IMG/VR virus record: IMGVR_UViG_3300020057_000001
Location: 62,001 to 126,000 of that record
Length of the DNA stretch: 64,000 bases
Strand: one strand, 5' to 3'
DNA from: a virus
Shown: positions 122-48,120 of the stretch, piece by piece
Numbering within the stretch: position 1 is the stretch's first letter
Layout of the letters: the number at the start of each line of letters is the position of its first letter
The notes under the pieces: model-generated
Database searches by the model: none
What the model was told of the DNA's origin: nothing
Seen by the model: the letters and a program-made list of their open reading frames with translations, nothing else
Made by a program: the position numbers and the translations under genes

Positions 122-148
122 GTTTCGGACGTGTCCGTTCAGACTTTA
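122..148 (-). promoter_or_regulatory. Sigma-28-like promoter F
   Basis: On the minus strand this reads TAAAGTCT-N11-TCCGAAAC, close to the FliA consensus TAAAGTTT-N11-GCCGATAA with the exact 11-base spacing. A CGGAC-GT-GTCCG dyad lies in the spacer and the -10-like box, suggesting an operator. It sits 33 bp before the ATG at 88. It is one of seven such elements in the window. Confidence 0.6.
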
Positions 149-162
149 GCATTATTTTCAGT

Positions 163-501
163 TTACTGAAAAAAAGCTAGCGGATGTGTCCATGAGTATT
201 CCTGTGCCCATTCTCGTGGCGTTAACGGTCTAGTAGTCCAAGAGAGATTTGAAAACTGCGCACCAAGCAATTCTGGCAAGACTTGGGTGACCATCTGCGT
301 GCGCTCGGTGCTGTGTTTGTGTGTGAATGCGGTGCTCACAATCGACAATTCGGCAAAGCCATCAGTCAGGCCGTTTGCGCTATGGATTACGATTTTTACA
401 AGAGGGTCGCTCCAGTACGTAGACAACACCTTTCTAAGATGTTCTTCCAATTGACCTATTACCACTTCTGTTGCCGATACGTCGTTGAAAAGCTCAGTCA
501 T
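163..501 (-). CDS. BolA/IbaG-like protein
   Basis: 112 aa with a GGGAG ribosome site; its start overlaps the end of the upstream gene by 8 bp. The pattern resembles the BolA/IbaG family: an N-terminal helix (VVIGQLEEHLRKVL), a beta hairpin with the block AELSIVSTAF near residues 50-60, a helix, and a C-terminal LTPREWAQEY that matches the family's TP-x-EW motif. BolA proteins have a KH-like fold and work with monothiol glutaredoxins in iron-sulfur handling, or bind DNA. The conserved histidine of the usual RHR block is absent (ERT here), so a glutaredoxin/cluster role is doubtful. Assignment rests on motif resemblance only. Confidence 0.5.
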   Translation of the reverse strand: MTELFNDVSATEVVIGQLEEHLRKVLSTYWSDPLVKIVIHSANGLTDGFAELSIVSTAFTHKHSTERTQMVTQVLPELLGAQFSNLSWTTRPLTPREWAQEYSWTHPLAFFQ

Positions 502-706
502 TCGACTCCCAGAGTTGTTCCATGCGCTCGGTTAATCTTACGACTTCCCGCGCAGTGTCCGTTCTAAATTCTGTAGAAAACCAGTTAGTAGGGGCTTCGT
601 TCAAGAAGCGAAGCAGAGCCGCACGCTGCCGCGCCGTGTGTAGGTATTCCGAGGGTATGTATTCCGTCAAGATGCCTGATAAACTCGACGGGTAGTGATG
701 CGTCAT
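494..706 (-). CDS. Hypothetical protein, 70 aa
   Basis: A 70 aa protein with a good ribosome site (GGAG, 5 bases before ATG). The ATG overlaps the upstream stop as ATGA, and its end overlaps the BolA-like gene, so three genes appear translationally coupled. The C-terminal half is helical and charged (DTAREVVRLTERMEQLWES). No family recognised. Confidence 0.65.
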   Translation of the reverse strand: MTHHYPSSLSGILTEYIPSEYLHTARQRAALLRFLNEAPTNWFSTEFRTDTAREVVRLTERMEQLWESND

Positions 707-1104
707 TCTTTCTCCTTCATTAGGTAGTCTAGATAATCTTCTTGCCCTGCCGCAATATACGCTAGCGTCTCATAAGGAATTGATGCGTAAGCCTGTTCGT
801 GCGACATGCCCTTCATGCGGTTTTTAATATAGTACGAAAGATAGGAACTGTAAAACTTAAGCCAGCCAATTTCTCGCACCTGCAAGCAGTGAACATTTTC
901 GTGGGCGCGCACCTTGGGGTCAATCTCTACCTCAAAGAAAAACACGATAGGGTAAAGTACGAACCCGCTCGGTATTTTCTTACTGCTAGTGGGTAGATGT
1001 ACAAACACCGAGCACGCTTCTCCTTTTAGTGGAGGCAGAAATTTTAGCTCAACCATTGAAAGGTTAAGCCACAGTAACAACGCTATTAGTATCCACCGCT
1101 TCAT
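703..1104 (-). CDS. Membrane-anchored HExxH zincin-like protein
   Basis: 133 aa. The ATG at 1104 is preferred because GGAG lies 4 bases upstream; a longer TTG-initiated frame exists but has no ribosome site. Residues 4-17 form a hydrophobic anchor or signal peptide. HENVH at 68-72 matches HExxH, followed by LQVREIG and, about 40 residues later, IPYETLAY whose glutamate (112) could be the third zinc ligand. This HE-x-x-H...Y-E-x-x-A layout is seen in small phage and bacterial zincin-like proteins. The position after the anchor places the catalytic domain outside the cytoplasm, where a lysis or envelope role is possible. Substrate unknown. Confidence 0.55.
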   Translation of the reverse strand: MKRWILIALLLWLNLSMVELKFLPPLKGEACSVFVHLPTSSKKIPSGFVLYPIVFFFEVEIDPKVRAHENVHCLQVREIGWLKFYSSYLSYYIKNRMKGMSHEQAYASIPYETLAYIAAGQEDYLDYLMKEKE

Positions 1105-1118
1105 AGTACTCCAAGTCC

Positions 1119-1433
1119 TTAACAATATTCCGTGGAATCGTCTTCGTCCGTAGGGGTGGGTGCAAGAGGTTCAAAGAATTTTGCTGGGTTTGCCGTGCCG
1201 TGTACCTGTTTTAAGTTGGTGACGTCTAAGTTGATACCAAGCGGCACGCGGTCGCCTTTCATATTGCAGCACGCAATTCCCGTCACGTGTGCGCCCGAAG
1301 AAACCGATGTAGTTTTAAAAATTTTAAAGACTAAACGGCTACGTCCCATTTCATGAGTGGCGTAGAACACCTGGGTAGTTTTAGGGTTTTGGAGCTGTAT
1401 GCGGGCGTGTGTGAAACATTCTGTCAAGTTCAT
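1119..1433 (-). CDS. Hypothetical protein, 104 aa
   Basis: Starts at ATG 1433 with an AGGAGA ribosome site, 35 bp downstream of sigma-28-like promoter A (1469-1494). It is therefore likely the first gene of the small-gene operon running leftward. Centre is beta-rich, with paired cysteines (GIACCNMKGDRVPLGINLD); the tail is acidic and proline-rich (PTPTDEDDSTEYC). No family recognised. Confidence 0.65.
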   Translation of the reverse strand: MNLTECFTHARIQLQNPKTTQVFYATHEMGRSRLVFKIFKTTSVSSGAHVTGIACCNMKGDRVPLGINLDVTNLKQVHGTANPAKFFEPLAPTPTDEDDSTEYC

Positions 1434-1468
1434 AAAAATCTCCTACGTGCGAACTAAGTCTACATTAG

Positions 1469-1494
1469 TTATCGGCAGGAATTTTCAAACTTGA
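1469..1494 (-). promoter_or_regulatory. Sigma-28-like promoter A
   Basis: Minus strand TCAAGTTT-N10-GCCGATAA. The -10-like half is a perfect match to the FliA consensus and the -35-like half differs in one base; the spacer is one base short. It lies 35 bp upstream of the ATG at 1433. Confidence 0.65.
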
Positions 1495-1500
1495 GGAAAA

Positions 1501-1659
1501 TTATTTCTTTTCTTCTTTATTTCTGTACTTGAGAAAAGTCTCGTTTTGTTTCGCCCAGATAGCGTGGAAGGCTGTAAGTTCTAGCTCTTTTACGCGCTTG
1601 TCGAGTTCTTTAATAATTTCAAGCAGGTCTTTAACGGTAGGCTTGGCGGGCAACTTCAC
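1501..1659 (-). CDS. Small charged helical protein, 52 aa
   Basis: A GTG-initiated 52-codon gene with a strong AAGGAG ribosome site 5 bases upstream. The protein (starts MKLPAKPTVKDLLEIIKEL, ends RNKEEKK) is a lysine/glutamate-rich amphipathic helix with heptad spacing, probably a small coiled-coil. It lies between thyX upstream and promoter A downstream. Function unknown. Confidence 0.6.
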   Translation of the reverse strand: MKLPAKPTVKDLLEIIKELDKRVKELELTAFHAIWAKQNETFLKYRNKEEKK

Positions 1660-1714
1660 GATAACTCCTTAAGAAGATCAAGATGGACCTATATTGGGAA
1701 AGACTGGTAGGGAG

Positions 1715-2365
1715 CTAAAGCCATTTTTTGGCTTGCCCGATAGCCGGAAACTGTTCACAAAAAACGTGTTGTATAGCCAAAGCGATATCTCTGTGTTCTT
1801 TTTGCGTTGAGACATCGGTCCTAAGGTCGAGGTAGTGTATCCAGTTGCGGAGGTTGTTTGTCATGTAAAGAGTTGTAGAGGTACCTAAAGGAAGGAGAAA
1901 ACGCGCTTGCTCTTTAGCAATGTTTTTATCTAACGCCTCTTGGTAAAGCCTAGTGCTTAAGCTCTGAACTTGAATTTGCGCGTCCAGAAACCACGCAAGG
2001 TCTTCTTCGGACATATCATCTAAGGAGTTCTGACGGTTTTTCTTATCTTGCCTGCGGGCAGGGTAAGTCTCAAATTCAGTAACCGCTGCGTAGCGCTGCG
2101 AAAACTCTTGAAACGTTGCAGACCTATGCCGAAGAATTTGTGCAGCTATGGCGCGTGAAGTAGTGATCTCCACTGTCATGTAAGCGTGTTCAAAGACAGA
2201 CCAGTGGCTGTGCTCTATGCAGTAGTTCAAAAGTTTAGAGGCTGTTTCGTTGTTCATCTGGTTCGAGGGGTTAGACACGCGCGCCACGTAAGCTGAAAGC
2301 TGCTCTGCTGACATATGCTCTAGGTCACCCACGCCCTTGGTCACCGATACTAGTTTCACTTTCAA
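1715..2365 (-). CDS. thyX: Flavin-dependent thymidylate synthase
   Basis: 216 aa, the usual size for ThyX. It converts dUMP to dTMP using methylene-tetrahydrofolate, FAD and NADPH. The family signature RHR-x7-S is at residues 79-89 (RHRSATFQEFS), followed by a second arginine (R91). Start is TTG at 2365 just after the upstream stop; the ribosome site is weak (GAGAT). With the phage dCMP deaminase, class II ribonucleotide reductase and dNMP kinase elsewhere in the window it completes a route to dTTP that does not depend on host ThyA. Confidence 0.93.
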   Translation of the reverse strand: MKVKLVSVTKGVGDLEHMSAEQLSAYVARVSNPSNQMNNETASKLLNYCIEHSHWSVFEHAYMTVEITTSRAIAAQILRHRSATFQEFSQRYAAVTEFETYPARRQDKKNRQNSLDDMSEEDLAWFLDAQIQVQSLSTRLYQEALDKNIAKEQARFLLPLGTSTTLYMTNNLRNWIHYLDLRTDVSTQKEHRDIALAIQHVFCEQFPAIGQAKKWL

Positions 2366-2374
2366 AATATGATC

Positions 2375-3865
2375 TCATTTCTTGCTTTGTTTGGGGAGCG
2401 TGTCCGGCTTTTTAACGTCTTTCAATTCGTTTATTGTTTCATGGTCAGCGTTCTCTAGCGCATTGTTAAACTCGTCGGTCTCATTCTTCGGATCGTAGCT
2501 GTAGTGCCCGATTTTTGAAATATTTACACCGTGGTGATTATTTAAGTGATCGATCACATCATTTGCAGCAGCCCTGTGGGTGCCTGTGACAAGAGACCCA
2601 TTCCCCATCTCACCATCGATCATGAAAGGCGGGATTTTGTTTTCACCTTTTATTTGAGACACGACCATTTGATGCACGTGCGGCCAATCGTGCACGACGT
2701 GGATCGGGTTGAAGTTTTGCGGATAATAAGGTTTCTGTGAGAATTTAGCAATAGTCTGTTTTAAAGCATGCGGTAAGTTGTTTGATTTTATGAGAGGGTT
2801 CTTCGGCGGTTTTGGAATTGCAATCTTTTTGGGAGCTTCAAAATCTGTTCCCGAACTCGATTCATCACGGGGATGCCCAACTTCGATATCTTTGCTGCTC
2901 ACTTTGAAGTGTGCCTCGGGGTGTGCGACGACGATTTCTTCTTCACTTGAATGGACTGGGTTGTGCCCTGGATAAAGTGAATGGCCGCCGGTGTGCAGCA
3001 CGTCTCTTAAGGGGACGTCCTTTTTCATGATGAGGTGGTGAGGGTGATCTTCTGAATCGTGCTCCCCCCGCCCTGTAGCGAAACGCGTAGCCATGTCACG
3101 ACTAAGAGACCAAGAGGACATGTGAGCCGAAGGGATTGTTACGGTTTTGTGGCGGTCCACTTTTGAAGCCTTCCCTACAGTGTAGGGGGACATACCGCCT
3201 TCGAGGTATTTTTCCTCGTCATGGTCTGTTACACCTAGTGAATCTTTCACCCGCTTTGCATAGCTTCCACCCACACCTCTATAGACCGTGATGTGCGGCT
3301 CGCCGTTAATCATTTTCTTGTTAATGTGGCTGTCGTTCATAATCGCTTTCTGTGAAGCAATCATGTGGTTAACGAGGTGAGGGGTTTGGTGCTTATGCTC
3401 GTCTGAGTGGCCCTTGTCACCTCTATGCGTTTCAATGTGTTCAGGCTCCCCCGTGTACATCGCTTTAATAGCCGCAAAATGGCTGGGCTCCACTTTTCTC
3501 TCGTATGAGTTCCAGAAGTCCCCAGATTGCTGCTCACCTTCCTCGGCGCCTCCACCTTGGTAGTTGGGGTGCGCTAAGATGGCTCCTGTGGAAAATTGCT
3601 CGTCAGGCGCGTGGCTCCATGCGTGTCTGAGTTGCTCTCTTGAGAGGTCCGGGTGTAGGTTGCCCGCTAAATTGTACAGTACATCCGATATTTGATCTTT
3701 GGGCGCGTGCTTCAGGTATTTTTCAACGTGACTTGGGGGAATAGGGTGTTCTTGTGCAGCAAGCATTTGAAAACCGCTGTGGTGTCTCAGTTTGTGTGCC
3801 ACTGCGATGGCTTTGTCCCAGTCCTGTGTCTGGGCGTAATGGTCTAAAAGTTGGTAGTCGTTCAT
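2375..3865 (-). CDS. Putative ADP-ribosyltransferase effector
   Basis: 496 aa, several regions. Residues 1-100 are helical with repeat-like segments. Residues 190-315 carry the three parts of the R-S-E class of mono-ADP-ribosyltransferases: YRG with R196, SSWS at 250-253, and the E-x-E pair at 308-310 (SSEEEIVV). Such enzymes transfer ADP-ribose from NAD to protein targets; T4 Alt and ModA are phage examples acting on RNA polymerase. Near 410-440, PPFMIDGE...GTHRAAA resembles a ParB/sulfiredoxin-type fold. The start overlaps the upstream NUDIX-GNAT gene by 4 bp, so they are likely co-made. Packaging into virions is inferred, not shown. Confidence 0.6.
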   Translation of the reverse strand: MNDYQLLDHYAQTQDWDKAIAVAHKLRHHSGFQMLAAQEHPIPPSHVEKYLKHAPKDQISDVLYNLAGNLHPDLSREQLRHAWSHAPDEQFSTGAILAHPNYQGGGAEEGEQQSGDFWNSYERKVEPSHFAAIKAMYTGEPEHIETHRGDKGHSDEHKHQTPHLVNHMIASQKAIMNDSHINKKMINGEPHITVYRGVGGSYAKRVKDSLGVTDHDEEKYLEGGMSPYTVGKASKVDRHKTVTIPSAHMSSWSLSRDMATRFATGRGEHDSEDHPHHLIMKKDVPLRDVLHTGGHSLYPGHNPVHSSEEEIVVAHPEAHFKVSSKDIEVGHPRDESSSGTDFEAPKKIAIPKPPKNPLIKSNNLPHALKQTIAKFSQKPYYPQNFNPIHVVHDWPHVHQMVVSQIKGENKIPPFMIDGEMGNGSLVTGTHRAAANDVIDHLNNHHGVNISKIGHYSYDPKNETDEFNNALENADHETINELKDVKKPDTLPKQSKK

Positions 3866-6267
3866 TTGGCACCCCTGCGCCCAATCGCATGCGCAACTTC
3901 CCGAGCTTCATCCCAGTCCACGGTCACTTCGTTGTCTGATTTTTTTAGAGAAGGCCCCTTTTGCCTAAACTGCCTAAACTTCCAGAGGTGTTCGGCATCG
4001 TGGCTCGTAGAACCTGCCTCTAATGGAACTCTGAAATGTTCCTCTGCATAGTCGTACATTGCCGACGCAACCCCTTTACGCTGGTGCTGAGGAAACACCT
4101 CTGTCTCGTAAGACATAATGTGGTCGGTGGGCTTTTTAGAAAAAATAGGCACGCCCTCTGCGTCTTCGTTATTGTCCCAATCATGGTAACCTATGCTTGC
4201 AAATCCCGCATGGTTTCCTTGCTTATCGTGGGCATTAACGTAGATGCCGCCGTGTGGGGAAGTTGTGTGAGAGAGCGTGTAACCCTCTTTTTGCCAATCC
4301 CCATTTTCACCTTTGCCCAAAGCAGCGACCCCCACTTGCCCAGCACTCTTTTTTATCTCTGGCTGCGGTTCTAGCAGCGCATTCTTTTCAGGAAGTTGTG
4401 TAGTTTGGTGTGCGGTTTTCAACGAGCGTAGCACTGACGCGTATTTTGCAGCGGCATGCAAGACACTCGTCTCGTTTCCAAACTCTAGCTTAGCCATTGA
4501 GGAGTTTCTAGCAACACCTCCAACGCCCTTTTGCGAACTGTGGTCCGAGTGTCTGATTTTTGGATGGTCAAATGGGAAACGTATGTATCTTGAATTCGTT
4601 GTCTCTGCCTTTTCTTCCCCGTGAGGAATACCTGAATCTTTGAGTTGACTTAAAAAGGCGTCGCATTGCAGGCTGCGTGTCTTCTGAGACGCAATCGCAA
4701 AACCTTGTTTTTCAAATTCGTCAGGTTGGAGCCCTTGGATGTACGCATGAGCGGAAGGAAGATCAGGAAAGCTTTCGGTGACCCCCTTTTTATTAGAAAC
4801 TTTCACGGGTTTGTTTACGTGCTCCTCGAGCCAAATACTACGGGAGACGCCCAAAGGACGGTCCGCCGGTGTGAGCGGAACGTGAGTAATATGCAAAGGC
4901 TTACCCAAAAGTGCGTCTTTTTTGTGCGGGTGGCTGTTCCTCACGGAATAGTAATTTGACATTGCGCGAAGTTTTTGCAAGCCCGTGCCTGCTTTGTTCA
5001 AATCTTTCGCCCAAACAATCGGAGGTTTTAGTGGGTCGCCCTGCACAACTTTTCGCGTTTTCCCGTCCATCGTAGGCTCTGGTAAATCTTTCGCATTTAA
5101 TTTAGACCAAACCCGTTTCGCTGCGTTTGACGTTTTGCCGGTATCTGACGCAAGGCCGCCGTAATGATCTGCTAACTTTTGATAAACTTTTTGTCCTAGA
5201 CCCTTACCCCTGTGAGGCTTGTCTATGAAGGAATGAGACATATGCATCCCATCGTGGCTTTTGTCGTGAAATTCCGAGTGGTCGACTAAAAATTTCCCAA
5301 CCGTTTTGTTTTCGTGATGTAATTCCCAGTAGTGTCTTTTGGAAGTCCCCCGCTCTCCTGGTTCAGTCCAGTTTCTGTGATGGAGTGTATACCCGTTCCC
5401 AATTTCATGCATCGTGAGCCCTTGAGCGTCTTCAGCTTTGTTGAGCTTCTCGCCGTTCATTTTGGGAAACATTTTCAGTATCAGATTGTGTTTTGCAGCG
5501 ACGTGAAGGTTTTCTAGGATTTCTTTCGGTAAACGCGCATTCACACTAAACCACTTAAAGCCTAGAGCTTCCTTGTCAGGGTCGTTTTCGTTTGTTATTT
5601 TTTGCGGGACTTTCTCTAGTTCAACTAAAAACGCCTTGACCACTTTGCCGTTAGGTGTTTTGCACCTCAATTTAGCGTCTGTAATTTCAGCTAAGTCTTG
5701 TATGCCTGTCTCTTCCCTAAATTCCCTTATTGCGCCTTTTTCAAAATCTTCGCCGTTTTCGACGTGTCCGCCAGGAAAGGTCCACTTTTTATTGTCGTTT
5801 CTTTTCATCATGAGAAGCTTATTATCCGCTTTCACTGCAAGACACGCCACGCGGTTACTTTCCGATTTCCACAGGCGGGTAGACTTCTTGACAGGCTCCG
5901 TCGAGTAATCCTCAATTTCGCTTTGATGGACACGTTCAGGGTGACCGCCTAAAGTGTAGAAATTACCGCCGCCTTCTTGGAGACTTTTTCCATTGTCTAC
6001 GATTTGAAGCACTGGATACCACAAGCCCTTGTACTTCGCTGTGTGCCCTTTGGGAGCCTTGTTTGCATTTGCTTTAGCTCGTGCAATTGCGTCTGCAAGG
6101 CTTTTTGCAAGTGCCGGATAAGACTTTGTTAACTGCGTGGCAGTGCTCATTGCGCTTTTTGCGAGACGGCTATCGCCGAGCTTAAGAGCCTCCTCTGCAA
6201 TTTTGAGGGCTTCGCTAAAAGCTTTTAAAGCGTTTTGTTGAATTTGGGTAAGTGGTTGTTTTTGCAT
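3862..6267 (-). CDS. NUDIX-GNAT-GNAT multidomain protein
   Basis: 801 aa from the ATG at 6267, chosen because GAGGGG lies just upstream; the longer reading has no ribosome site. Domains: N-terminal alanine/lysine-rich helix (1-75); NUDIX hydrolase with a complete box at 167-189 (G-x5-E-x7-REFREETGI); a GNAT acetyltransferase with acetyl-CoA loop RGKGLG at 353-358; a long unassigned middle; and a second GNAT with QRKGVA near 729. Short KKS-type linkers separate parts. NUDIX enzymes cleave nucleoside diphosphates linked to other groups and GNATs acetylate amines, so this resembles a multi-enzyme effector. It forms a pair with the ADP-ribosyltransferase gene. Confidence 0.75.
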   Translation of the reverse strand: MQKQPLTQIQQNALKAFSEALKIAEEALKLGDSRLAKSAMSTATQLTKSYPALAKSLADAIARAKANANKAPKGHTAKYKGLWYPVLQIVDNGKSLQEGGGNFYTLGGHPERVHQSEIEDYSTEPVKKSTRLWKSESNRVACLAVKADNKLLMMKRNDNKKWTFPGGHVENGEDFEKGAIREFREETGIQDLAEITDAKLRCKTPNGKVVKAFLVELEKVPQKITNENDPDKEALGFKWFSVNARLPKEILENLHVAAKHNLILKMFPKMNGEKLNKAEDAQGLTMHEIGNGYTLHHRNWTEPGERGTSKRHYWELHHENKTVGKFLVDHSEFHDKSHDGMHMSHSFIDKPHRGKGLGQKVYQKLADHYGGLASDTGKTSNAAKRVWSKLNAKDLPEPTMDGKTRKVVQGDPLKPPIVWAKDLNKAGTGLQKLRAMSNYYSVRNSHPHKKDALLGKPLHITHVPLTPADRPLGVSRSIWLEEHVNKPVKVSNKKGVTESFPDLPSAHAYIQGLQPDEFEKQGFAIASQKTRSLQCDAFLSQLKDSGIPHGEEKAETTNSRYIRFPFDHPKIRHSDHSSQKGVGGVARNSSMAKLEFGNETSVLHAAAKYASVLRSLKTAHQTTQLPEKNALLEPQPEIKKSAGQVGVAALGKGENGDWQKEGYTLSHTTSPHGGIYVNAHDKQGNHAGFASIGYHDWDNNEDAEGVPIFSKKPTDHIMSYETEVFPQHQRKGVASAMYDYAEEHFRVPLEAGSTSHDAEHLWKFRQFRQKGPSLKKSDNEVTVDWDEAREVAHAIGRRGAK

Positions 6268-6295: not shown

Positions 6296-6324
6296 ATTTT
6301 ATCGCAACAGGTCGTAAAATACAA
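6296..6324 (-). promoter_or_regulatory. Sigma-70-like promoter for the NUDIX-GNAT unit
   Basis: Minus strand TTGTAT-N17-TAAAAT, 28 bp upstream of the ATG at 6267. Its -35 overlaps the TAAAAT box of the divergent fibre promoter at 6315-6320, so the two promoters may compete. Confidence 0.45.
6315..6320 (+). promoter_or_regulatory. GTAAAAT box before fibre gene 1
   Basis: TAAAAT preceded by CG, 34 bp upstream of the ATG at 6354, with no recognisable -35. It belongs to a set of similar boxes before plus-strand units. Confidence 0.45.
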
Positions 6325-9162: not shown

Positions 9163-9175
9163 CCTATCGGCTAGG
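9163..9175. repeat. 13 bp inverted repeat, left copy
   Basis: CCTATCGGCTAGG; the reverse complement occurs at 16176-16188, so the pair brackets the fibre genes at 9371-16171. The left copy overlaps the -10-like box of promoter B. Confidence 0.5.
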
Positions 9176-9190
9176 CGGTCACGGACTTGA
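9164..9190 (-). promoter_or_regulatory. Sigma-28-like promoter B
   Basis: Minus strand TCAAGTCC-N11-GCCGATAG: seven of eight bases in the -10-like half match the FliA consensus, with the exact 11-base spacer. It is 64 bp before the zinc-ribbon gene and back-to-back with the TAAAAT box at 9193. Confidence 0.6.
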
Positions 9191-9370: not shown

Positions 9371-10639
9371 TTGTCATATCAAGGACGGAAACCCGCGCTT
9401 CTCTCGTTACGTACAGGTGAGCTTGTGCTACCAAAAGCTGCGGATATCTCGCTGGCTACAGGTACGTCAAACAATTTAAATATCCCCGCGTCTACCAGTA
9501 ACTCGTACATCCGGTTTACACTCACTGGCGAATCCGTGCTCACCGGTGTCGTGGCTCCTACAGCGCCTTACGCAAGCGGTAAGCTGTACGTGTTTACCAA
9601 CGCGGGCGTCGGTTTGACAATCACTTTGAACAACGAAGATATCAACTCAAACGCTGGTAACCGCTTTATCACCGGGACAGGAAATGACCTCACTATTGCT
9701 GAAGGTGCTTCTGTCTTTGCAATCTACGACGACGGCGCATCGCGCTGGCGTATCGTGGGCGGCTCCGGCTCCGGTTCTGGCTCAGGTACTTTCAAAAACT
9801 ACTATTCTGTTTGGTTTGACTCGACCAAAAATATTCCGAGCACAAGCAACGGTACCGTGTCCGCTGCGGGTAACCGCACTGCAACTGACGTTCAGTGGGC
9901 TTCGACGAACACTTCGGACATCAGCGTAATACGCTCAGCAATCACGCCGCTTCGGGGAAGGTACTCATACATCTTTCAGGGTACTACGGCAAACGCAGCG
10001 GGAACTACATTCGTTGAATCGCCTACCTTTACATTAGACAATGTAGACCGAGCGACCTCAACTCTCTTACAGCCGATGTACATATCGTTTGAGTACAATG
10101 GTGTTGGCGCTGATGGAGATAACGATCTTATCTTAGTCAGATACAACTCCGCTGGTACGTTCGGATCTGTTCAAACTATTTTTACTGCCGCTGGGCAAAG
10201 TGCCACAGCAACGCCCGGCGCTCGAATCTTGTCAGCGGGTCCTCGGTTTTTTGGGTATGTTCCTGCGGGGATTACTGCAAACGTGGGCGATAAATTCGCT
10301 GTGCGGTTTAGAAACCTTGCGGCGGCTTCAGTCGGCTTAAGAATTACAGGCTTCTACACGGGGCCTAACGCCGACATCGGCTCTACTTCGCAACGGTTTG
10401 TCGGTGATAAAGAATTTGCCGACCGGTTGGTTGCACGGGAAGGAACAACAGTTCCACAGCAACTCGATATCGGCTCTACGACCACAATACTCGCAGGAGA
10501 AACAAGAATCGTCGGGCGCTTGGACATAGCTTCTGGGACAACTATTAACCTTGCGGCGGCTGACAGCTATCTCGTAACTGCCGGACCGATTACAGGACCT
10601 GGGACTTTAAGCGGACCGGGCGTTATCATAAGCGTTTAA
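9371..10639 (+). CDS. Tail fibre / structural protein
   Basis: 422 aa from a TTG start (GAGGTG ribosome site). Residues about 135-142 are a Gly-Ser linker that separates an N-terminal domain from a beta-rich C-terminal part. The central domain (roughly 215-330, with GVGADGDNDLILVRYNSAG) is clearly related to the equivalent part of the fibre at 13676 (GVTADGNWDVVVVRYNSSG), so the two share a receptor-side or shaft module. It ends in a short beta repeat segment. Probably a tail fibre or baseplate appendage. Confidence 0.6.
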   Translation: MSYQGRKPALLSLRTGELVLPKAADISLATGTSNNLNIPASTSNSYIRFTLTGESVLTGVVAPTAPYASGKLYVFTNAGVGLTITLNNEDINSNAGNRFITGTGNDLTIAEGASVFAIYDDGASRWRIVGGSGSGSGSGTFKNYYSVWFDSTKNIPSTSNGTVSAAGNRTATDVQWASTNTSDISVIRSAITPLRGRYSYIFQGTTANAAGTTFVESPTFTLDNVDRATSTLLQPMYISFEYNGVGADGDNDLILVRYNSAGTFGSVQTIFTAAGQSATATPGARILSAGPRFFGYVPAGITANVGDKFAVRFRNLAAASVGLRITGFYTGPNADIGSTSQRFVGDKEFADRLVAREGTTVPQQLDIGSTTTILAGETRIVGRLDIASGTTINLAAADSYLVTAGPITGPGTLSGPGVIISV

Positions 10640-10657
10640 CTTTTAAGGAGAAAATCT

Positions 10658-12430
10658 GTGTCTTTTATACCAAACTTAACAAGCTCCCCGTCCCTCGCGG
10701 TAGACGGACTTGCGGGTACTTCTGCAAGTGCTCCTGTAGCCTTCCCAGCCGGATTCACCGGCGTAGGAGCTATACCGTTTGCTGCCGCTGACGCAGCGCT
10801 GACCATGACTGTCGCAGTGCATGGGTCTCTAGTGTCTATGACGCCCACAGCTACAAGAATTATTACTCTAGCTTCAACGGGAGTTGCTACAGGTTTTCCT
10901 GTAATGATCATCAATAATAGCGCAACGTTTAGTATCACGATCAATGCCTCGGGTGGTACGCAAATCACGGTATGCGGCCCTTCCACTAGTATCAGTCTTT
11001 ATTCAAACACTGCTGCACCAACGTTAAACACGCAGTGGAGCATTGCAAACGGCGGCGCGTTTCTGCTTTCAGGTAACAGTGTCGGCGCTGCGATTACGCT
11101 TGGAACTAATGACAACTTTGATCTGAATCTCAGAACAAATGGAGTTGTCGGACTGACGTTAAGTACTGCGGGCGCTGTTACGATGGGATTCACCCCGTCA
11201 ACAAACATAACGCACCGAGTAAACGGCAGGGAGCTTAGACTTATAGGCCCTACTGGCGACCCAGCCTTCTTTCAAACAGACCAAGCAACGAATAACGCAG
11301 GTAAAAGGTGGCGCTTCGGGCATACTGGCGGAATCGCAGGTTTTAACAGTTTCGATTTACAGAACGAAACAGATAACATCATTGCATTTTCGGCTTCGAG
11401 CGCAGGCGCTGTTACGATGGGGGCTAGCGCAGCAGTGGGATTGAAGCACTCGCTGATTGGGAACAACGTGCTTGTCCTTGGAGATGGCGGCACCGTTGAC
11501 TTTAAAAACAGGGCAGAGACAACAACGTTTATGTCGATACAGACGACGACCGGCGCTGTTACGATTGGGCCACCGGTCAATCTGAATTACAACGGAACAG
11601 CACACAGTATTGCGGGCGGATTGAGAGTTGCTACTCCGACTTCGCCGAGTACCGACCAAGCTTACTCGTTCAACCTGACAGCTAACTCGCTTGGTGATAA
11701 TGCAACGCATACTCGCACCAACACGGCAAACGGTGGTGTAAGATTCATTTTAAATCCCAGAACATCGGACAATGATTCCTGCTTTAATATACAGACAACA
11801 CCTGCCGGAAGCTCGCTTGCGACAAGTCCCGACAAAACGGTTTTTGCTGTAACCGCAGCAGGCTCTGTTACGCTGGGGCCTTCTGCTGGTCTCGCGGGCT
11901 TTCACCTTATCCGAAACACCTCGACAACGTCGTCAACTTTATACCTAAGTAACAGCAGCACTAGTACATCGTCAGATACGCACTACAGTCTGATATGTGA
12001 AAAAGGTTCAACAACTGTTTCGACTTCACAGAACTACATCTTGTTTCAAGCCAACGCTGGCGCAAGCCTAAACGGCAAAATCAACGGTAACGGCGCTAAC
12101 AGTGCCGCCTTCGGCTCAACGTCTGATAGCAGAGTAAAAGAGAACGTAGCTGATATGGAACCAATGCTCGCAAACATGGTTGCACTGAGACCTGTTACGT
12201 TTGACTATATCCAAACTGCGTCAACAAGCGCCGGTGAAGGCGTCGGCTTTATTGCTCAAGAAATGGAAGTAATATTTCCAGACGCAGTGAGCGAAGACGG
12301 CAACGGCTTTAAGCAGATTAGCGGTTGGGACAAAACAACGGCTCGGCTTGTCAAAGCTCTGCAAGAACTATCAGCTAAAAATGACGCACTAGAAGCTAGA
12401 CTAGCAACATTAGAAGGAATAACCCTATGA
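10658..12430 (+). CDS. Tail fibre with S74 intramolecular chaperone
   Basis: 590 aa, GTG start with AAGGAG. Starts MSFIPNLTSSPSLAVDG, a motif shared by the next two fibres and likely the attachment point. The middle repeats GAVTMG/GAVTIG blocks typical of beta-helical shafts. The C-terminal about 100 residues are a peptidase S74 (endosialidase chaperone) domain: SDSRVKENV carries the Ser/Lys catalytic pair, followed by RPVTFDY, GFIAQEM and a final coiled coil. S74 domains trimerise the fibre, then cut themselves off. Confidence 0.85.
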   Translation: MSFIPNLTSSPSLAVDGLAGTSASAPVAFPAGFTGVGAIPFAAADAALTMTVAVHGSLVSMTPTATRIITLASTGVATGFPVMIINNSATFSITINASGGTQITVCGPSTSISLYSNTAAPTLNTQWSIANGGAFLLSGNSVGAAITLGTNDNFDLNLRTNGVVGLTLSTAGAVTMGFTPSTNITHRVNGRELRLIGPTGDPAFFQTDQATNNAGKRWRFGHTGGIAGFNSFDLQNETDNIIAFSASSAGAVTMGASAAVGLKHSLIGNNVLVLGDGGTVDFKNRAETTTFMSIQTTTGAVTIGPPVNLNYNGTAHSIAGGLRVATPTSPSTDQAYSFNLTANSLGDNATHTRTNTANGGVRFILNPRTSDNDSCFNIQTTPAGSSLATSPDKTVFAVTAAGSVTLGPSAGLAGFHLIRNTSTTSSTLYLSNSSTSTSSDTHYSLICEKGSTTVSTSQNYILFQANAGASLNGKINGNGANSAAFGSTSDSRVKENVADMEPMLANMVALRPVTFDYIQTASTSAGEGVGFIAQEMEVIFPDAVSEDGNGFKQISGWDKTTARLVKALQELSAKNDALEARLATLEGITL

Positions 12431-20085: not shown

Positions 20086-20116
20086 AAAAATCCTCTCGGT
20101 TTATTTCCTAGTGTAG

Positions 20117-20143: not shown

Positions 20144-20168
20144 GAGGAATTCACATATTTTTTAGCAA

Positions 20169-27163: not shown

Positions 27164-27170
27164 TCACAAA

Positions 27171-38077: not shown

Positions 38078-38079
38078 AA

Positions 38080-39081
38080 TTACACTCCTACTGCTGTTAC
38101 GACCTCTTGAAAAAGGAAGTTTACGTCATTATCGGCGAGTTCGTCCACCATATGAGACAAAACATCTAAATAAGTTTTACGGTCTGTGGAACTAGAGGAG
38201 AACACGACGTCGTCCGCCGCAAGTATTATTTTTACACCTAGCGCGTTAAATTCTTTGTAAGCATCGCTTTTCTTAAACTTTGAGAGTTCTAAGAAGGAGC
38301 CTGACAGCTTGAGACGAAAAGAGTCACCTGTGTTAAACAGCTCTACACGCGGTAGATTTTCTACCTTGCACTCGTAGGTCAATTTTCGAGGAAGACCGAG
38401 CGAGATTAAATTTTCAGTGTACGTCCCTGCGCTGAAGTTAAATAGAGATATCGTCTTTTCCGCTACTTCGCCAAACGAGTGGTGAAAAGGTGTACCTACG
38501 TATATGACGTTTGAGTGAGGCTTTTGTCTATCGTGAAAGTGTCCCGCAATAAGAAGGGGCCAATTAGCGTCCCACCTGTCACCTTTTGCGCAGACGACTT
38601 TAGGCGCCATAAACGAGCCCTCGATTTCGGGGTGCGCAAACACCGCTGAAGATGTGCGCCAGTCGGGTAGCAAATCTAGAGCTTCTACAAGTCGTCCTGG
38701 CGGGGTGTACGGTGTGAAGGAAAATGATAAGCCACCTATAGTGGCTTGAGTAGGGTGGTCAACTATAGTGATATTGCGTAGGTTTTTTAGAACTTTAAAC
38801 GGATGGTCTGATTCAAGAAACCGTGAAGGCGCTACCATATCGTGATTACCGATAAGGAGGTAGACGGGTACATGTTCAGCTAGGCTCTTAATCCAATCGT
38901 ATGCAGTGTTTAAAAGCGTACTGTGACAAACTGCGTGGGTGTGGTTAAGGTCGCCCGTGATCACTACAGCGTCGGGTTTGGTTTGCTTTACGACTTCTAA
39001 CGTAGTCTCTGCCATCTTAAGAAAAACGGGTAGAGTACTCATTTGACAATGAGGGTCACCTATCACGAGAACATTAGACAT
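38080..39081 (-). CDS. sbcD: SbcD/Mre11-like nuclease
   Basis: 333 aa, AAGGAAA ribosome site. Calcineurin-type phosphoesterase motifs in order: GDPH (8-11), ITGDLNH, LIGNHD, AGHFHD and, nearby, FAHPEI. It supplies the nuclease partner of SbcC. Equivalent to T4 gp47. Confidence 0.9.
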   Translation of the reverse strand: MSNVLVIGDPHCQMSTLPVFLKMAETTLEVVKQTKPDAVVITGDLNHTHAVCHSTLLNTAYDWIKSLAEHVPVYLLIGNHDMVAPSRFLESDHPFKVLKNLRNITIVDHPTQATIGGLSFSFTPYTPPGRLVEALDLLPDWRTSSAVFAHPEIEGSFMAPKVVCAKGDRWDANWPLLIAGHFHDRQKPHSNVIYVGTPFHHSFGEVAEKTISLFNFSAGTYTENLISLGLPRKLTYECKVENLPRVELFNTGDSFRLKLSGSFLELSKFKKSDAYKEFNALGVKIILAADDVVFSSSSTDRKTYLDVLSHMVDELADNDVNFLFQEVVTAVGV

Positions 39082-40844: not shown

Positions 40845-41522
40845 TCATGCCTCGACTATAGCGAAATGTTTGTTTTGCCAATTTTTAATTTCGTCAGTGG
40901 AAAGTTTCTTGAGCCAATTTTTAGAAGCGTTGTCAAAAAAGAACCCTTCAGCTTTTGCGAAGTCTTTTTGATGAAACGAAACCAAGGCTTTAACCGTCTT
41001 TTTTGGCTGTAGAGCATCCTGTATAACACTGTCGAGGTTCGGTAGAGCGCATAAGATTTGAATCAACAAGCGCACGTCGGCTGCTGCCCTATGGAGTTTT
41101 AAAACAGGCAATCCAAGGTCAACGGCAATGTGCGAGAGTTTGCTGGCCTTCGTGCCCGTGATTCGAATGTCTTCGCGTGTGCAAAGAAAAGGGCGGTCGA
41201 TCGGCAAGCCTAGCATCTGTAGGCGAGGAGCATCAAACTTTACGTTATGGGCGACAAGGGCGTCTGCTTGAGAAGCGTAGTAAGACAGTATACAAAGACC
41301 AACGTTGAGCCATTCAGGGCTAGAGGGGATTTCTTGAAGGGCTGCGTCAGGTATACCGTTGACGTGAAAGGTCGCGTTGAGTTTGTCAGTCTTCACCAAA
41401 AAACTAAACTCAGCCAGTACTTCTTTTGTCGTCGTAGACAAAAGAGCCCCTGCCACTTCAATAACAGGGTCGTCGGCGAGGTCGAGCCCTGTAGTTTCAG
41501 TATCTAGTACAAGTAGTTTCAC
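40845..41522 (-). CDS. DnaQ-family 3'-5' exonuclease
   Basis: 225 aa. DEDDh exonuclease motifs: LDTETTG (D7, E9), ALVAHNVKFDAPRL (second aspartate), and HRAAADVRLL (histidine and final aspartate). The C-terminal 60 residues are extra and end in FAIVEA. It may proofread or degrade short single strands or RNA. Four bp overlap with the GroEL gene. Confidence 0.85.
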   Translation of the reverse strand: MKLLVLDTETTGLDLADDPVIEVAGALLSTTTKEVLAEFSFLVKTDKLNATFHVNGIPDAALQEIPSSPEWLNVGLCILSYYASQADALVAHNVKFDAPRLQMLGLPIDRPFLCTREDIRITGTKASKLSHIAVDLGLPVLKLHRAAADVRLLIQILCALPNLDSVIQDALQPKKTVKALVSFHQKDFAKAEGFFFDNASKNWLKKLSTDEIKNWQNKHFAIVEA

Positions 41523-44149
41523 CCACCACCCCCATGCCGAGCTTGCTCTTGAAAGAGCATCCGAGCTTCATTGATTTTCCCAAGGTCCGCAGTTACGGCT
41601 ATACATCCGGTAGTGGCGCACAAAATCCCAAGTTCCACACCGTTGCGAATTACAGACGTGACCGTCACGGACGAATCTGCTACACCGAGGTCCCGGAAGT
41701 CCCCGATAACAACCCCACTTTCTTCAAAGCGGACAGTTGTCGTACCCGTATCGGCTAGTGCTAGATCAAAAGTTAGCGCAGTTCCGTAATTTTCACATAA
41801 TTGTAAAAGAACGGATTTAAAAGCTTCGCTCAAACCAGCCGACATGCCCGATGCCCTTGCAGCGTAGATGTAAGACATGCCTGCGCCAGGGACGACGCCG
41901 TTGCGGGAAGCTGCTTGAACGGCTTGAATAGCATCGTCAACTCGGTCGGCTCTTTCTTGAATGCTTGCAGAGTGCCCGCCACCGACAGAAATTGTAACCA
42001 GACCGCCCGTGAGTTCGGCGTTGCGTGCCGAAATAACATCGGCACCTTGGCGTGTGGGCGCAAAGCTAACAGCTTTTTCGTTCTGCGCAGCTCGCTCGGG
42101 AATCGTGTGCTTTGCCGCACGACCTGTGAGGATAGTCTTAAAGGGCTGCACCTCAATAGAGGTACAAGTACCTAGGTCGTCGTAGGTGGACGTTCGGTAA
42201 CTAGCGCCATCTTGCAGGGTGGCGCACGTGATAGCGGAAATGTCCAAGAGTCTCTGATACTCGACGTTCATTTCCGGGCTTAAAGCGAGTTTCGATAAAA
42301 AGATGCGTCCTGTGTGCTTTCCGTGAGCGAGGTTGCGGTTCTGCACCATTACCTCGTTGGCAAGACCTTCACCGATATCTTTTGCGAAACAGACCAAGTG
42401 TTGCTTGAATTGCCCATTGCTCTGGGCAGCAATACTGTTAACAGCTTGTGTGATCTGCTCCATGCTCTCAAGGTTCCCATTGTAGATAAAGACTGCGGGA
42501 CCTTGAAGAACAAAAGAGTCGTTCTCGGCAGATTTTTCTGACACTGAAATAGCTAAGCTCTTGTGGTACTCGTACCCACGACCTGCACAGTAACCGTTTT
42601 GGCGTACAATTTTGTAGAGTTCATTCTGCAAAGCATCTTTTGCGATAGTGACCGTCCCATAGGCACCTACGTTGTCTAGGGCTTCTAGCGCAGCGGTGGC
42701 GATGTCGGAATCGCCATTAGAAGAAGTCATAGCTACGTGGTGTAAAAGGCTCGCATCTCGGATAGCAAGTTCCTCTACCTTGAGAATGGCTGCTTCTGCT
42801 TCTCGTTTAAATTGACGGGCGAGAGCTTGAGGATTTTTAGAAGAACTGTTGAGTATAGCGCTGGATACTGCCGCCGCAAGCACGAGAGTGGACGTCGTGT
42901 TGTGGGTGACAATGAAATTGTCTGTGATGTAAAGATTGTCAGGGTTACTGACTTTTATACACATCATAGGGGTTGTAACCCCTGTGGCTGTAATTTTGTC
43001 TAGCCTATTTCCGTACTTAAAGTTTTCTAAATGTGTGACGCTCCAGATCGGCGGCGGGAAGTAGAGGTTACCTTCTTCGTGTTTCTGTAGCGACATCTTT
43101 ACAGGTTTACCTAAACTGAGGCAAAGGTCGGTAAAGTCTTGAGCCAGCTCTTTACTGACGCTGCTAAACGCAACCACGCTGCTGTTAGTCGTGTAAGCGT
43201 CAGCGTCTGTTAAACCTTGAAATAATTTTTCACGATGATTCGCAGTTGTGTAGAGGTATGATTTAGGGATAAATTGTGCGCCTAGCAATCCTATAGACGC
43301 AAGAATTTGTTGCATGGTCTTACCGTCGGTCGAACGTCCCTGTATGCTTACGCGAAATGAAGAATCACTTACTACGTAGGTAGAAGAGAGGTTAAACCCT
43401 TCGGGAAGAACCAACTTAGCGATAATGTGCTCTTTTGGCTTACTCAAAGAAATTTCAACAGATCCCGTACCACGAAGTGAGACATCGCCAAGTAAGACAC
43501 CCACGAGGTATGGGTCGAGAGGCATCTCTGCCTCATTGTTGCAGAATTGGACGTGAGTGAGAGGCGAGTAGTATCGTTTTTGGGTCTCTCCTTCGTTGTT
43601 AGCAATTATATAATCTTTGGCTAAATCACCCGTTGTTTTTGTTTCTAATCGAGGGCCGGTAGTACCCGCGTTTGTAACAGTCCAGAGGTGGTCGGCGCAG
43701 CATTCCACCTCGCGGTTGTCACTGAACAGCAGTTTGTAAATCTCTCGCTCGCCTTTAGGGAACACCCCTAAGACGGTTTGAATGGTTCCGTTTGTCCCAC
43801 AGATTCCCATGCCTACTGTGACGTCCCGCATCTCAATGAAGCCTTTAGGTGTCAGCACTTTAGAGTACAGAGGCTGAGGGCCGTCGCCTGCATCTAATAC
43901 TGTCTTGGCAGAAGACTGGTTGCAGAAGTAATGAATGGCGTGCTCTATCGGGTCGTTGAATTCTAATGCCTTTAAGACAGTAATACCGTCCTTGGTGTAA
44001 GTGGCACAAAAATCACCGAGCGGGTCACGCTTTTCAATAATTGCGGGTTTGCCGGAAGGTCCGAGGGTGGACCCCACCGCTTGAGCGATCTTCGAGAGAG
44101 CTTCTACGGCTTTGCGTGAAGCGTCCTGTATTTCTAAAGTTTTTGTCAT
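41519..44149 (-). CDS. groEL: GroEL-type chaperonin interrupted by an intein
   Basis: 876 aa from ATG 44149 (GAGGA ribosome site); removing the intein (residues 91-417) leaves about 549 aa, the normal GroEL size. The GroEL parts include GSTLGPSGKPAIIEK, KDGITVLKAL, VVPGAGMSYIYA and a glycine-rich end (HGGGG). The intein interrupts the ATP-binding loop DAGDG/TTSTLVLA between glycine and threonine, so unspliced protein should be inactive. Phage chaperonins fold virion or replication proteins and some work without GroES; no GroES-like gene is visible here. Confidence 0.93.
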   Translation of the reverse strand: MTKTLEIQDASRKAVEALSKIAQAVGSTLGPSGKPAIIEKRDPLGDFCATYTKDGITVLKALEFNDPIEHAIHYFCNQSSAKTVLDAGDGPQPLYSKVLTPKGFIEMRDVTVGMGICGTNGTIQTVLGVFPKGEREIYKLLFSDNREVECCADHLWTVTNAGTTGPRLETKTTGDLAKDYIIANNEGETQKRYYSPLTHVQFCNNEAEMPLDPYLVGVLLGDVSLRGTGSVEISLSKPKEHIIAKLVLPEGFNLSSTYVVSDSSFRVSIQGRSTDGKTMQQILASIGLLGAQFIPKSYLYTTANHREKLFQGLTDADAYTTNSSVVAFSSVSKELAQDFTDLCLSLGKPVKMSLQKHEEGNLYFPPPIWSVTHLENFKYGNRLDKITATGVTTPMMCIKVSNPDNLYITDNFIVTHNTTSTLVLAAAVSSAILNSSSKNPQALARQFKREAEAAILKVEELAIRDASLLHHVAMTSSNGDSDIATAALEALDNVGAYGTVTIAKDALQNELYKIVRQNGYCAGRGYEYHKSLAISVSEKSAENDSFVLQGPAVFIYNGNLESMEQITQAVNSIAAQSNGQFKQHLVCFAKDIGEGLANEVMVQNRNLAHGKHTGRIFLSKLALSPEMNVEYQRLLDISAITCATLQDGASYRTSTYDDLGTCTSIEVQPFKTILTGRAAKHTIPERAAQNEKAVSFAPTRQGADVISARNAELTGGLVTISVGGGHSASIQERADRVDDAIQAVQAASRNGVVPGAGMSYIYAARASGMSAGLSEAFKSVLLQLCENYGTALTFDLALADTGTTTVRFEESGVVIGDFRDLGVADSSVTVTSVIRNGVELGILCATTGCIAVTADLGKINEARMLFQEQARHGGGG
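42899..43879 (-). mobile_element. Intein with LAGLIDADG homing endonuclease in groEL
   Basis: 327 aa. First residue is proline (PQPLYSKVLTPKGFIEM), last residues VTHN with threonine at +1. Splicing blocks: A-block LTPKGFIEMRDV, B-block CCADHLWTV, F-block MMCIKVSNPDNLYITD and G-block NFIVTHN. The tryptophan in B, cysteine at the fourth F position and threonine in G are the triplet of class 3 inteins, which lack a nucleophile at position 1. Between the splicing halves lie LAGLIDADG-type motifs (LVGVLLGDVSL, LFQGLTDADA), so it is probably a mobile element. Confidence 0.88.
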
Positions 44150-44817
44150 GGCAAATCCTCGTATTTTTTGAGTAGTGTAGCGGCTTCGTCCATGCTCTTG
44201 GCGAAACACTCTACCTGTACTTTAAATGTTTTGGCAAAAGATAACAGGTTGACGTCAGGTGGGTTACCCCAGACTAATTTACGGTGGCGTAACGGATGCA
44301 CAAGGCAGAGCGTTAAAAGCCCGAGGTCCCAAGCAAACTGCCCATAGGAAGTTTTGGCAACAGGTTCTTTCACGTCGTGAGAATACGGTGTTAGATCCCA
44401 TACGTTCCCTGCGTTGGTTGAGTCTTCTCGGTACCATGAGGTTTGGTCCCAGGTCGGAGGCGTCGTGCCTTTGGAAAGAATGACTGCGGCCTCGCCTAGT
44501 TTGGATAGTGTGCCTCTTTTCGAGGTCGTCTGGTAGTGCATAAACACGACGTCACCAAACGTAAGCTGCGGGTACGCCGAAAGGTCTGCGGTATGCGACA
44601 TCGCTTTTACAAGGTCCATCTTGCTATGTCTAAAGGTCAGTAAGGTGACACTATCACTAGAGGTGCCTTGGTTCAAACGAGTGAGGAGGGTTTTTGCTTC
44701 TTCTTGTTTGACGGGCATGTTGAACACGTAGACGTCGGCACTCGGCATAGGGGCTTCCCACACACTGTCAGTGCTGACGACTTGAATTGAGATAAGATTG
44801 TCTTCAGACTTCATCAT
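44146..44817 (-). CDS. Hypothetical protein upstream of groEL
   Basis: 223 aa from ATG 44817, inside the end of the SSB gene (14 bp overlap). Alternating beta strands and helices (SADVYVFNMP, VTLLTFRH, FGDVVFMHYQT, EAAVILSKG) and conserved-looking YGQFAWDLGLLTLC and HPLRHRKLVWGNPP. The fold pattern recalls a degenerate Rossmann or methyltransferase-like protein, but no catalytic motif is evident. Overlaps groEL by 4 bp. Function unknown. Confidence 0.55.
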   Translation of the reverse strand: MMKSEDNLISIQVVSTDSVWEAPMPSADVYVFNMPVKQEEAKTLLTRLNQGTSSDSVTLLTFRHSKMDLVKAMSHTADLSAYPQLTFGDVVFMHYQTTSKRGTLSKLGEAAVILSKGTTPPTWDQTSWYREDSTNAGNVWDLTPYSHDVKEPVAKTSYGQFAWDLGLLTLCLVHPLRHRKLVWGNPPDVNLLSFAKTFKVQVECFAKSMDEAATLLKKYEDLP

Positions 44818-47050: not shown

Positions 47051-47063
47051 TGGTTTGTAAATC

Positions 47064-48053
47064 CTATTTAGAACGTGTGTGGGTATTTAAGCGTTGCGTT
47101 AATGAAAGAGATTCGGTAAAATCTGTAGCCGCTTCGTGAAGAGCGTGTTCCGCAGCGGCATGAACTTCGGGCGTAGTTGCATCGTGTAGGAGAGCTACGC
47201 GGAATTCTTCTTCTACTAGTAACCCCGAGTTCACAGGGAGGTTAAACCGTTCAACGGCACTCAGTAAATGGCTCAGCTCCGTTCTGTAGGGTACCACGAG
47301 AGTATTGGCTGTGTTTGTATTAGCGAAGAGCAAAAACGGGCACAAGGAGAGTTTTCGATAGTCGAAGCAGTCAATCATCGGTGGAATCCCTGTAGTGTAC
47401 TGCTTATGTACCAGAGCACGGGCGGTCTCTATTTCAAAAGCCGAGGATGCGCAGTATTCAAAAACAGATTCAAGGTACTCGTTCCCTAGGGCTTTGTATA
47501 TAGCTGCACGGCTAGGGCGAAGCTGGCGTGCCAAATTAAGCGCTGTCAGGTCGGACGCTAGCAAACCAACAATATCGTAGCTCTCTGTAAAGATGCGAAG
47601 ACCTCGTTTAAGTAGTTCGGCCCTTATTATTACGGTATTGCGATTCAAACTAGACTTGTAGCTAAAGAAAAAGGAACCGGGTAACCGTGTACCTTGGCGT
47701 AGAGATGTTCTGCTTTTGGTGGATTCACCTACCGGAGAGGTAAGCCAGTTACTCATAGGCTTGAGTGTGTACTGGGGATGGTTACCGGCGGTATGCGTAA
47801 TATCAAGTACACCCCGAGACGTTAAATGTCTAAGTGCGGCAGCAACAGCGGTCTTTCCCATCCCTGTTGCGTCAGTGAGATTCTGGCGAGACGGCATGAA
47901 GGCGTCCGAGTGAAACAATAGATGCATCAGGATAACAAACCCCCCCGAATCGAGCCTTAAATCCAAAAGCTCCCGCCGCAGCGTAAGGTACTTAGTTGTT
48001 TTAGCTTTTACCGCTTGATACGTACTCTCAACATACTCTGATTTCCCTAACAT
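47064..48053 (-). CDS. Winged-helix protein, replication initiator or repressor candidate
   Basis: 329 aa. Residues 35-105 form a winged helix-turn-helix (FMPSRQNLTDATGMGKTAVA then ALRHLTSRGVLDITHT and a wing). The rest is helical without a known enzymatic motif. The gene starts about 110 bp from a 28 bp iteron array and is read away from it, as in plasmid and phage initiators that bind upstream iterons. It is transcribed from promoter G. Initiator versus transcription regulator cannot be told from sequence alone. Confidence 0.55.
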   Translation of the reverse strand: MLGKSEYVESTYQAVKAKTTKYLTLRRELLDLRLDSGGFVILMHLLFHSDAFMPSRQNLTDATGMGKTAVAAALRHLTSRGVLDITHTAGNHPQYTLKPMSNWLTSPVGESTKSRTSLRQGTRLPGSFFFSYKSSLNRNTVIIRAELLKRGLRIFTESYDIVGLLASDLTALNLARQLRPSRAAIYKALGNEYLESVFEYCASSAFEIETARALVHKQYTTGIPPMIDCFDYRKLSLCPFLLFANTNTANTLVVPYRTELSHLLSAVERFNLPVNSGLLVEEEFRVALLHDATTPEVHAAAEHALHEAATDFTESLSLTQRLNTHTRSK

Positions 48054-48093
48054 AAACCCTCTCAGTAAATTGCGATCAATACTACTTTCAACC

Positions 48094-48120
48094 GTATCGG
48101 CAGACCCAAACGAAAGTCAA
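48094..48120 (-). promoter_or_regulatory. Sigma-28-like promoter G
   Basis: Minus strand TTGACTTT-N11-GCCGATAC: seven of eight -10-like bases match FliA. The -35-like half diverges and also gives TTGACT, so dual recognition is possible. It is 40 bp before the winged-helix gene. Confidence 0.5.

Follow-up and report, generated by a model that had tools for sequence, protein, structure and literature searches.

Candidate FliA-type (sigma-28) promoters ahead of replication, accessory and lipoprotein genes of an Mx1-related phage

Phages are, to our knowledge, generally taken to open infection with promoters of the housekeeping sigma factor. Here, sites that resemble promoters of the flagellar sigma factor (FliA/sigma-28 family) are described in a phage genome of the IMG/VR collection, record IMGVR_UViG_3300020057_000001 (160,071 bp, termed G000), of which bases 62001-126000, a stretch of 64,000 nucleotides termed the window, were analyzed first for such sites in an earlier prediction. 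The closest described systems are bacterial class 3 flagellar promoters, which combine the -35 element TAAAGTTT with the -10 element GCCGATAA over a gap of 11 bases at a short distance from the start codon (the consensus is used here as given by the original prediction), and the promoters of the attack phase of Bdellovibrio bacteriovorus. According to the published study, 92 of 140 attack-phase promoters carry a sigma-28-like consensus, TTAAG-N16-CCGATA, and FliA-type promoters dominate this life stage and govern it, many non-flagellar genes included (PMC3627812). The sites of G000 share both elements, the gap and the short distance to the start codon with the flagellar promoters, but lie in a phage genome, before replication, accessory and lipoprotein genes, and have a more degenerate -10 element. 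The Bdellovibrio promoters serve cellular genes, whereas those of G000 would serve phage genes, and Bdellovibrio as a host is hypothetical. In the literature covered by the search, which took in few subscription papers and no bioRxiv preprints, the listings and the opening lines of abstracts gave no report of phages with FliA, sigma-28 or SigD promoters.

The E. coli consensus TAAAGTTT-N11-GCCGATAA, allowing up to three mismatches, matched G000 17 times, compared with a single match of the reversed pattern. With an independent matrix, whose training set comprised 86 sites of eleven other records and none of G000, 20 sites scored at or above the threshold of 14 bits in the whole record, while 30 Markov-3 simulations yielded a mean of 1.0 (maximum 4) and the reversed pattern none; a search of the full genome with such statistics had been proposed as a check together with the original prediction. 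In the window alone, 7 sites were detected against a simulated mean of 0.6 (maximum 3) and no reversed match. Iterating the matrix with the sites of G000 included gave 36 sites at this threshold (20 simulations, mean 3.25; reversed pattern, 3). The spacing of the half-sites was specific, as pairs at gaps of 8 to 15 bases occurred 2, 0, 1, 20, 4, 0, 0 and 3 times, and thus 20 of 30 pairs had the gap of 11.

The original prediction had named equal density inside coding regions and on the plus strand as an outcome that would speak against promoters. Of the 20 sites, 15 were intergenic (14 after addition of a gene that had been missed), while intergenic DNA makes up 11.7% of the record. Both strands carry sites (minus, 12; plus, 8), and in the record the signal extends beyond minus-strand units. 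Genes were called by a simple in-house script and not by curated annotation. At least one real gene (window 29960-30511) escaped the script, on which the numbers of intergenic sites and transcription-unit heads given here depend. Distances were measured to the called start or to the first ATG that has a ribosome-binding-like site. Judged by both elements, spacing, position and direction, a FliA-type nature of the G000 sites is supported.

All seven sites of the original prediction are present on the minus strand of the window (Table 1), six of them with 11 bases between the halves and the one at 1469-1494 with 10, and an ATG follows each of them at a distance of 22-64 bp. Their description as FliA-like was borne out to different degrees: the sites at 9164, 20117, 22217 and 35921 reached 14 bits, the site at 1469, which could be scored with the matrix only after its gap was padded by one base, qualifies by its octamers, the site at 122 is borderline, and the site at 48094 did not qualify. 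The list was also incomplete, since a good site at 29985-30011 was absent from it. This site falls within the final 52 bases of a gene (29960-30511) for an HNH endonuclease and was counted as intergenic because the automatic calls lacked that gene; in the homologue of the gene in G010, one of the other records studied, a site is likewise found in the 3' end. The two remaining window sites above the threshold, at 21621 (minus strand) and 52269 (plus strand), are located in genes and probably reflect chance.

Table 1. Sigma-28-type sites and GTAAAAT words in the window (positions counted from the first base of the window).
Feature	Position	Strand	Elements	Downstream start or gene	Matrix score (bits)
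FliA-type promoter candidate	122-148	-	TAAAGTCT-N11-TCCGAAAC	ATG, 33 bp	13.985 (borderline, threshold 14)
FliA-type promoter candidate, 10-base gap	1469-1494	-	TCAAGTTT-N10-GCCGATAA, both octamers near perfect	ATG, 35 bp	
FliA-type promoter candidate	9164-9190	-	TCAAGTCC-N11-GCCGATAG	open reading frame of 67 amino acids, 64 bp	15.1
FliA-type promoter candidate	20117-20143	-	TCAAGTTT-N11-TCCGAACA	AAA-ATPase gene, 31 bp	16.4
FliA-type promoter candidate	22217-22243	-	TCAAGTTT-N11-GGCGATAC	ATP-dependent DNA ligase gene, 27 bp	19.0
FliA-type promoter candidate, absent from the original list	29985-30011	-	TAAAGTCC-N11-TCCGATAA	gene of 421 amino acids, 67 bp	16.4
FliA-type promoter candidate	35921-35947	-	TAAAGTTT-N11-TCCGAACA	transglycosylase gene, 22 bp	17.9
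Originally listed, unsupported as FliA-type	48094-48120	-	-35 element TTGACTTT		9.2
Match within a gene	52269-52295	+		no suitable start codon found downstream	15.8
Match within DNA ligase gene	21621-21647	-			14.5
GTAAAAT	6314-6320	+	GTAAAAT	start, 33 nt	
GTAAAAT	22376-22382	+	GTAAAAT	start, 25 nt	
GTAAAAT	24512-24518	+	GTAAAAT	start, 18 nt	
GTAAAAT	48720-48726	+	GTAAAAT	gene with weak virion-protein match, 27 nt	
GTAAAAT	60099-60105	+	GTAAAAT	start, 22 nt	
GTAAAAT	62663-62669	+	GTAAAAT	start, 22 nt	

In the window, the transglycosylase gene behind the site at 35921-35947 is followed by genes for a DNA polymerase, a DnaB-like helicase and a deoxycytidine monophosphate (dCMP) deaminase. Across the whole record, the genes directly after sites encode an ankyrin-repeat protein, a collagen-repeat lipoprotein (record 37613-38386, minus strand, also with a trypsin-like domain), the AAA ATPase, the DNA ligase, the transglycosylase that precedes the polymerase and helicase, as well as numerous small proteins. 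It is from this gene content that we infer that the sites serve early genes.

Myxococcus, the host genus of the nearest cultured relative that was found, is not known to have flagella. This relative, the one phage to which comparison of the tail sheath pointed, is Myxococcus phage Mx1 (OR576727.2), to which 17 open reading frames of G000 have a match (one of them a mere shadow on the strand opposite the baseplate gene). Tail sheath, baseplate, portal, terminase, major capsid, chaperonin and SbcD-like proteins are common to both, and by the shared terminase, portal, capsid, sheath and baseplate genes G000 is an Mx1-related contractile-tailed phage, the contractile tail following from its tail sheath protein gene. 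G000 further encodes a DNA polymerase, a helicase, UvsX-like and SbcCD-like proteins, ribonucleotide reductase, ThyX, DNA ligase, a ClpP-like protease and a chaperonin. Mx1 differs in having its own sigma gene, transfer RNA genes, none of which were found in the scanned stretches of G000, and the words CTTGACT and CTAGTAT before genes. At up to two mismatches Mx1 has no FliA-type site and one reversed match, and a looser pattern gave one of each. No cultured phage was matched by a 24-kb stretch of the window at the level of near-identical DNA or by the polymerase and capsid proteins of G000. An A1-like protein of G000 matched 1116 records of cultured phages, all below 60% identity, and no relative emerged from two scans of genome collections, one with this protein and one with a portal alignment.

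To place the motif beyond G000, IMG/VR was scanned with the exact 16-base consensus, which returned at least 120 stretches. In these 120 loci, 185 occurrences of the looser motif had the right spacing, compared with 4, 2, 1, 17, 0 and 1 at neighbouring spacings and one in reversed form; the count at the right spacing includes, by selection, one or more exact matches from every locus. Thirty-one distinct records (under 32 handles) were tested, comprising G000, the record of locus L017 and others from the exact-match loci, mostly picked for several matches. At up to two mismatches, 22 of the 31 had five or more sites, and the total amounted to 232 compared with 35 for the reversed pattern. Not all records were clean: G017 had 11 sites but also 8 reversed matches, G026 (2 sites, 2 reversed) and G029 were no better than controls, and G012 and G014 have sites in common and look like one virus. 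In 13 fetched records, one of them partial, 92 of 109 sites were intergenic by the earlier gene calls, and the next gene was co-oriented in every one of these 92 cases; the second gene calls, made for seven fetched records, placed 66 of 80 sites in intergenic DNA, which accounts for 16% of the sequence. Many sites are positioned 20-50 bp ahead of a start.

Most of these records were picked by the motif alone, while G001 was found by its capsid gene as well as by the motif. Their relation to G000 is uneven. Open reading frames of G000 had matches in G018 (22), G022 (13), G003 (11), G025 (7), G001 and G013 (5 each) and G020 (4), and none in G002 and G004. Other kin groups were formed by G013 with G025 and by G006 with G024; a single protein of G006 and of G025, compared with cultured phages, gave either no match or polymerase matches of mixed host only. 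The motif recurs both in distant relatives of G000 and in phages that appear unrelated to it. In the 103.8 kb of eleven portal relatives that had been found without the motif, there were 5 sites, 4 of them distinct, and no reversed match, against a mean of 1.1 and a maximum of 3 in 20 simulations, a count that is small but supportive of recurrence.

We consider it probable that the sites act as promoters for the host RNA polymerase together with a flagellar-type sigma factor of the FliA/sigma-28 family, by which the start of infection would be tied to sigma-28-active cells. The reading draws on the match of the sites in sequence and spacing, on their position and direction, on their recurrence in other phages, on the absence of the motif from Mx1 and on the failure to find a FliA homologue. 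From these features we infer that host sigma-28 uses the sites, when it would do so and that infection would depend on motility. As the source of the sigma factor, the original prediction had left open either the host or a phage gene outside the window. A search for the latter with the FliA/WhiG family (TIGR02479) gave no match at E values up to 10 in the 160-kb record, and sigma-70 region 2 (PF04542, phrog_351, phrog_234 and a profile of the Mx1 and G018 proteins), the beta' subunit of a multisubunit RNA polymerase and a gp55-like gene were not found in G000 either. The search for a single-subunit polymerase was uninformative, as it matched neither G000 nor any control genome, and no homologue of the anti-sigma factor FlgM was found among the 15 records searched. 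An independent IMG/VR assembly of this virus, G031 (147,886 bp), is circularly permuted relative to G000 and joins its last bases to its first. Therefore G000 is essentially the whole, effectively circular genome, except for the exact length of the ankyrin-type repeats at the junction. Since neither a FliA/WhiG homologue nor a beta' subunit was found in an essentially complete record, recruitment of a host factor is better supported than a phage sigma factor.

Several observations weigh against a host sigma-28 as the reader of these sites. Five of the 20 sites at or above 14 bits are in called genes, and a sixth is in the gene missed by the caller. The -10 element of G000 is degenerate, with C or G as second base and GAA as well as GAT. 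Only 10 of the 76 transcription-unit heads of the record have a site, and most units must thus use something else. The Bdellovibrio phage phi1422, described in PMC3391216, has one site and one reversed match and lacks the design, and the flagellum-binding phage Chi has two sites, both within genes, which argues that a motile or sigma-28-rich host alone does not lead to it. Finally, G000 does encode a sigma region-4-like protein of 198 amino acids outside the window (record 31832-32428, plus strand; L010:12032-12628), whose match to PF04545 (11.7 bits, E 0.036) remains below the cut-off. Separately, a general presence of the motif in Bdellovibrio phages or in flagellum-binding phages is unsupported, with phi1422 and Chi as the one phage tested for each group.

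The region-4-like protein bears on the most serious alternative, a phage-encoded sigma factor with FliA-like specificity, either whole or split into a region-2 and a region-4 protein. The protein is common to G000, G022, G003 and G017 (85-86 amino acids in the latter two), and its gene is located after the portal gene and ahead of the same next gene in G000 and G022. The G003 protein is above the PF04545 cut-off, and among the 31 records region 4 exceeded the cut-off in two (G003, G026), with a weaker match in eight. Moreover, a region-2-type sigma factor is encoded by G018 and Mx1, and a late sigma factor like gp55 of T4 by G006. Sigma genes and motif do not track each other, however, which speaks for a host factor: Mx1 has a sigma factor without the motif, G000 and G022 (a 51-kb fragment) have the motif without a detectable region-2 protein, and in G018, which has the motif, no region-4-like protein was detected and the portal gene abuts the gene that follows the region-4-like gene in G000 and G022. 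The G003 protein weakly resembles region 4 of SigA (best E 0.016-0.023), and no FliA-named molecule was among its 28 matches. In addition, the exact bacterial consensus recurs in phages without mutual homology. We therefore regard a phage-encoded sigma factor of this specificity as unlikely. By analogy with gp33 of T4, a possible parallel, the region-4-like protein could act in a gp33-like manner; its predicted fold was of low confidence (mean predicted local distance difference test score, pLDDT, 46) and was not used.

Somewhat less likely still is that the sites are operators of a phage regulator, or promoters of another host sigma factor, that resemble FliA promoters by accident. Several records do show conserved sequence beyond the two octamers, namely a TAG/GTA stretch shortly downstream of the -10 box and, ahead of the -35 element, a run of A-rich bases with C at its end, and the spacer in G006 and G024 often includes TTGACA, the -35 hexamer of sigma-70. 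Yet in octamers, gap, direction and distance to the start the sites agree with a sigma-28 promoter, and in most records the spacer is variable. In G006 (L175-L181) and G024 (L187), where TTGACA stands in the spacer of many sigma-28-type sites, TATAGT or a similar word follows downstream, as if sigma-28 and sigma-70 promoters overlapped. Chance, or an artefact of searching AT-rich intergenic DNA, is very improbable overall, even though most other records were selected for at least one exact match and G017 and G026 are not clean. It is refuted for the G000 sites as a set: the record was not selected by an exact match, and the G000-free matrix, the simulations, the reversed pattern and the gap controls all reject it. 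Lambda and the initial 50 kb of T4, like Mx1, have no site and one reversed match each.

If host RNA polymerase with host sigma-28 reads the FliA-type promoters of the phage, these would drive part of the replication genes and many small accessory and surface-lipoprotein genes, and infection would start only, or best, where sigma-28 is active, in motile cells or in a predatory bacterium during its free-swimming phase. GTAAAAT, a further signal that consists of a -10 element only, might drive many plus-strand genes, some of them structural, giving two stages in which the sigma-28-type promoters would act first and GTAAAAT later. A wider generalization is tentative and rather doubtful at present: several unrelated lineages may independently have put their early programme under the host flagellar sigma factor, with infection only in swimming cells, for instance in the attack phase of predatory Bdellovibrio-like bacteria, where sigma-28 acts as a global regulator, and later genes on the -10-only class. 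If sets of sigma-28 promoters do extend over whole genomes in several phage lineages, some phages would use the motility state of the cell as a go signal. Such a set would be a simple sequence signature by which such phages could be spotted in metagenomes, it would hint at the host state they need, and a direct test would be feasible in any cultured member.

The GTAAAAT signal was found by counting words before transcription-unit heads without a FliA site. It occurs 22 times in the record, and 13 copies, all on the plus strand, are 8-45 nt before a co-oriented start, compared with 5 of the 18 copies of the reversed word that are near a start. The genes behind it include those for the major capsid protein, a protease-like protein, a virion-like protein and four long tandem genes. 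No conserved -35 element was seen for this class. The late transcription of T4 uses gp55 with TATAAATA promoters. GTAAAAT looks like a late promoter of that type, as it is a -10-only signal close before genes, some of them structural, and a gp55-like protein is encoded by G006, a phage with sigma-28-type sites; it differs in the word itself and in that no gp55-like gene was found in G000. G022 also has GTAAAAT, and in G006 the word GTAAATA is present, with 8 of 33 copies near a start.

The four tandem genes preceded by GTAAAAT are very long paralogues, whose products start with MEKLAKAGF, and extend on the plus strand from window 60128-64000 on to position 134772 of the record, with a copy of the word before each. 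A divergent chaperonin (Cpn60) gene (window 41519-44209, minus strand) is seemingly split by a LAGLIDADG-like segment, a weak match below the cut-off. The terminase large subunits of G000 (record 25284-27746, plus strand) and G022 (10226-13507, plus strand) appear, by eye from their translations, to contain intein-like inserts. Collagen-repeat lipoprotein-like genes stand behind sigma-28-type sites in three phages (G000, L157:8634-9308 and L159:9206-10357), and a collagen match in G022 was below its cut-off. Arrays of genes for small ankyrin-repeat-like proteins are found at record positions 301-3939 (minus strand), 18989-23115 (plus strand) and 159016-159715 (minus strand), and one gene of these arrays starts behind a sigma-28-type site at record position 18946.

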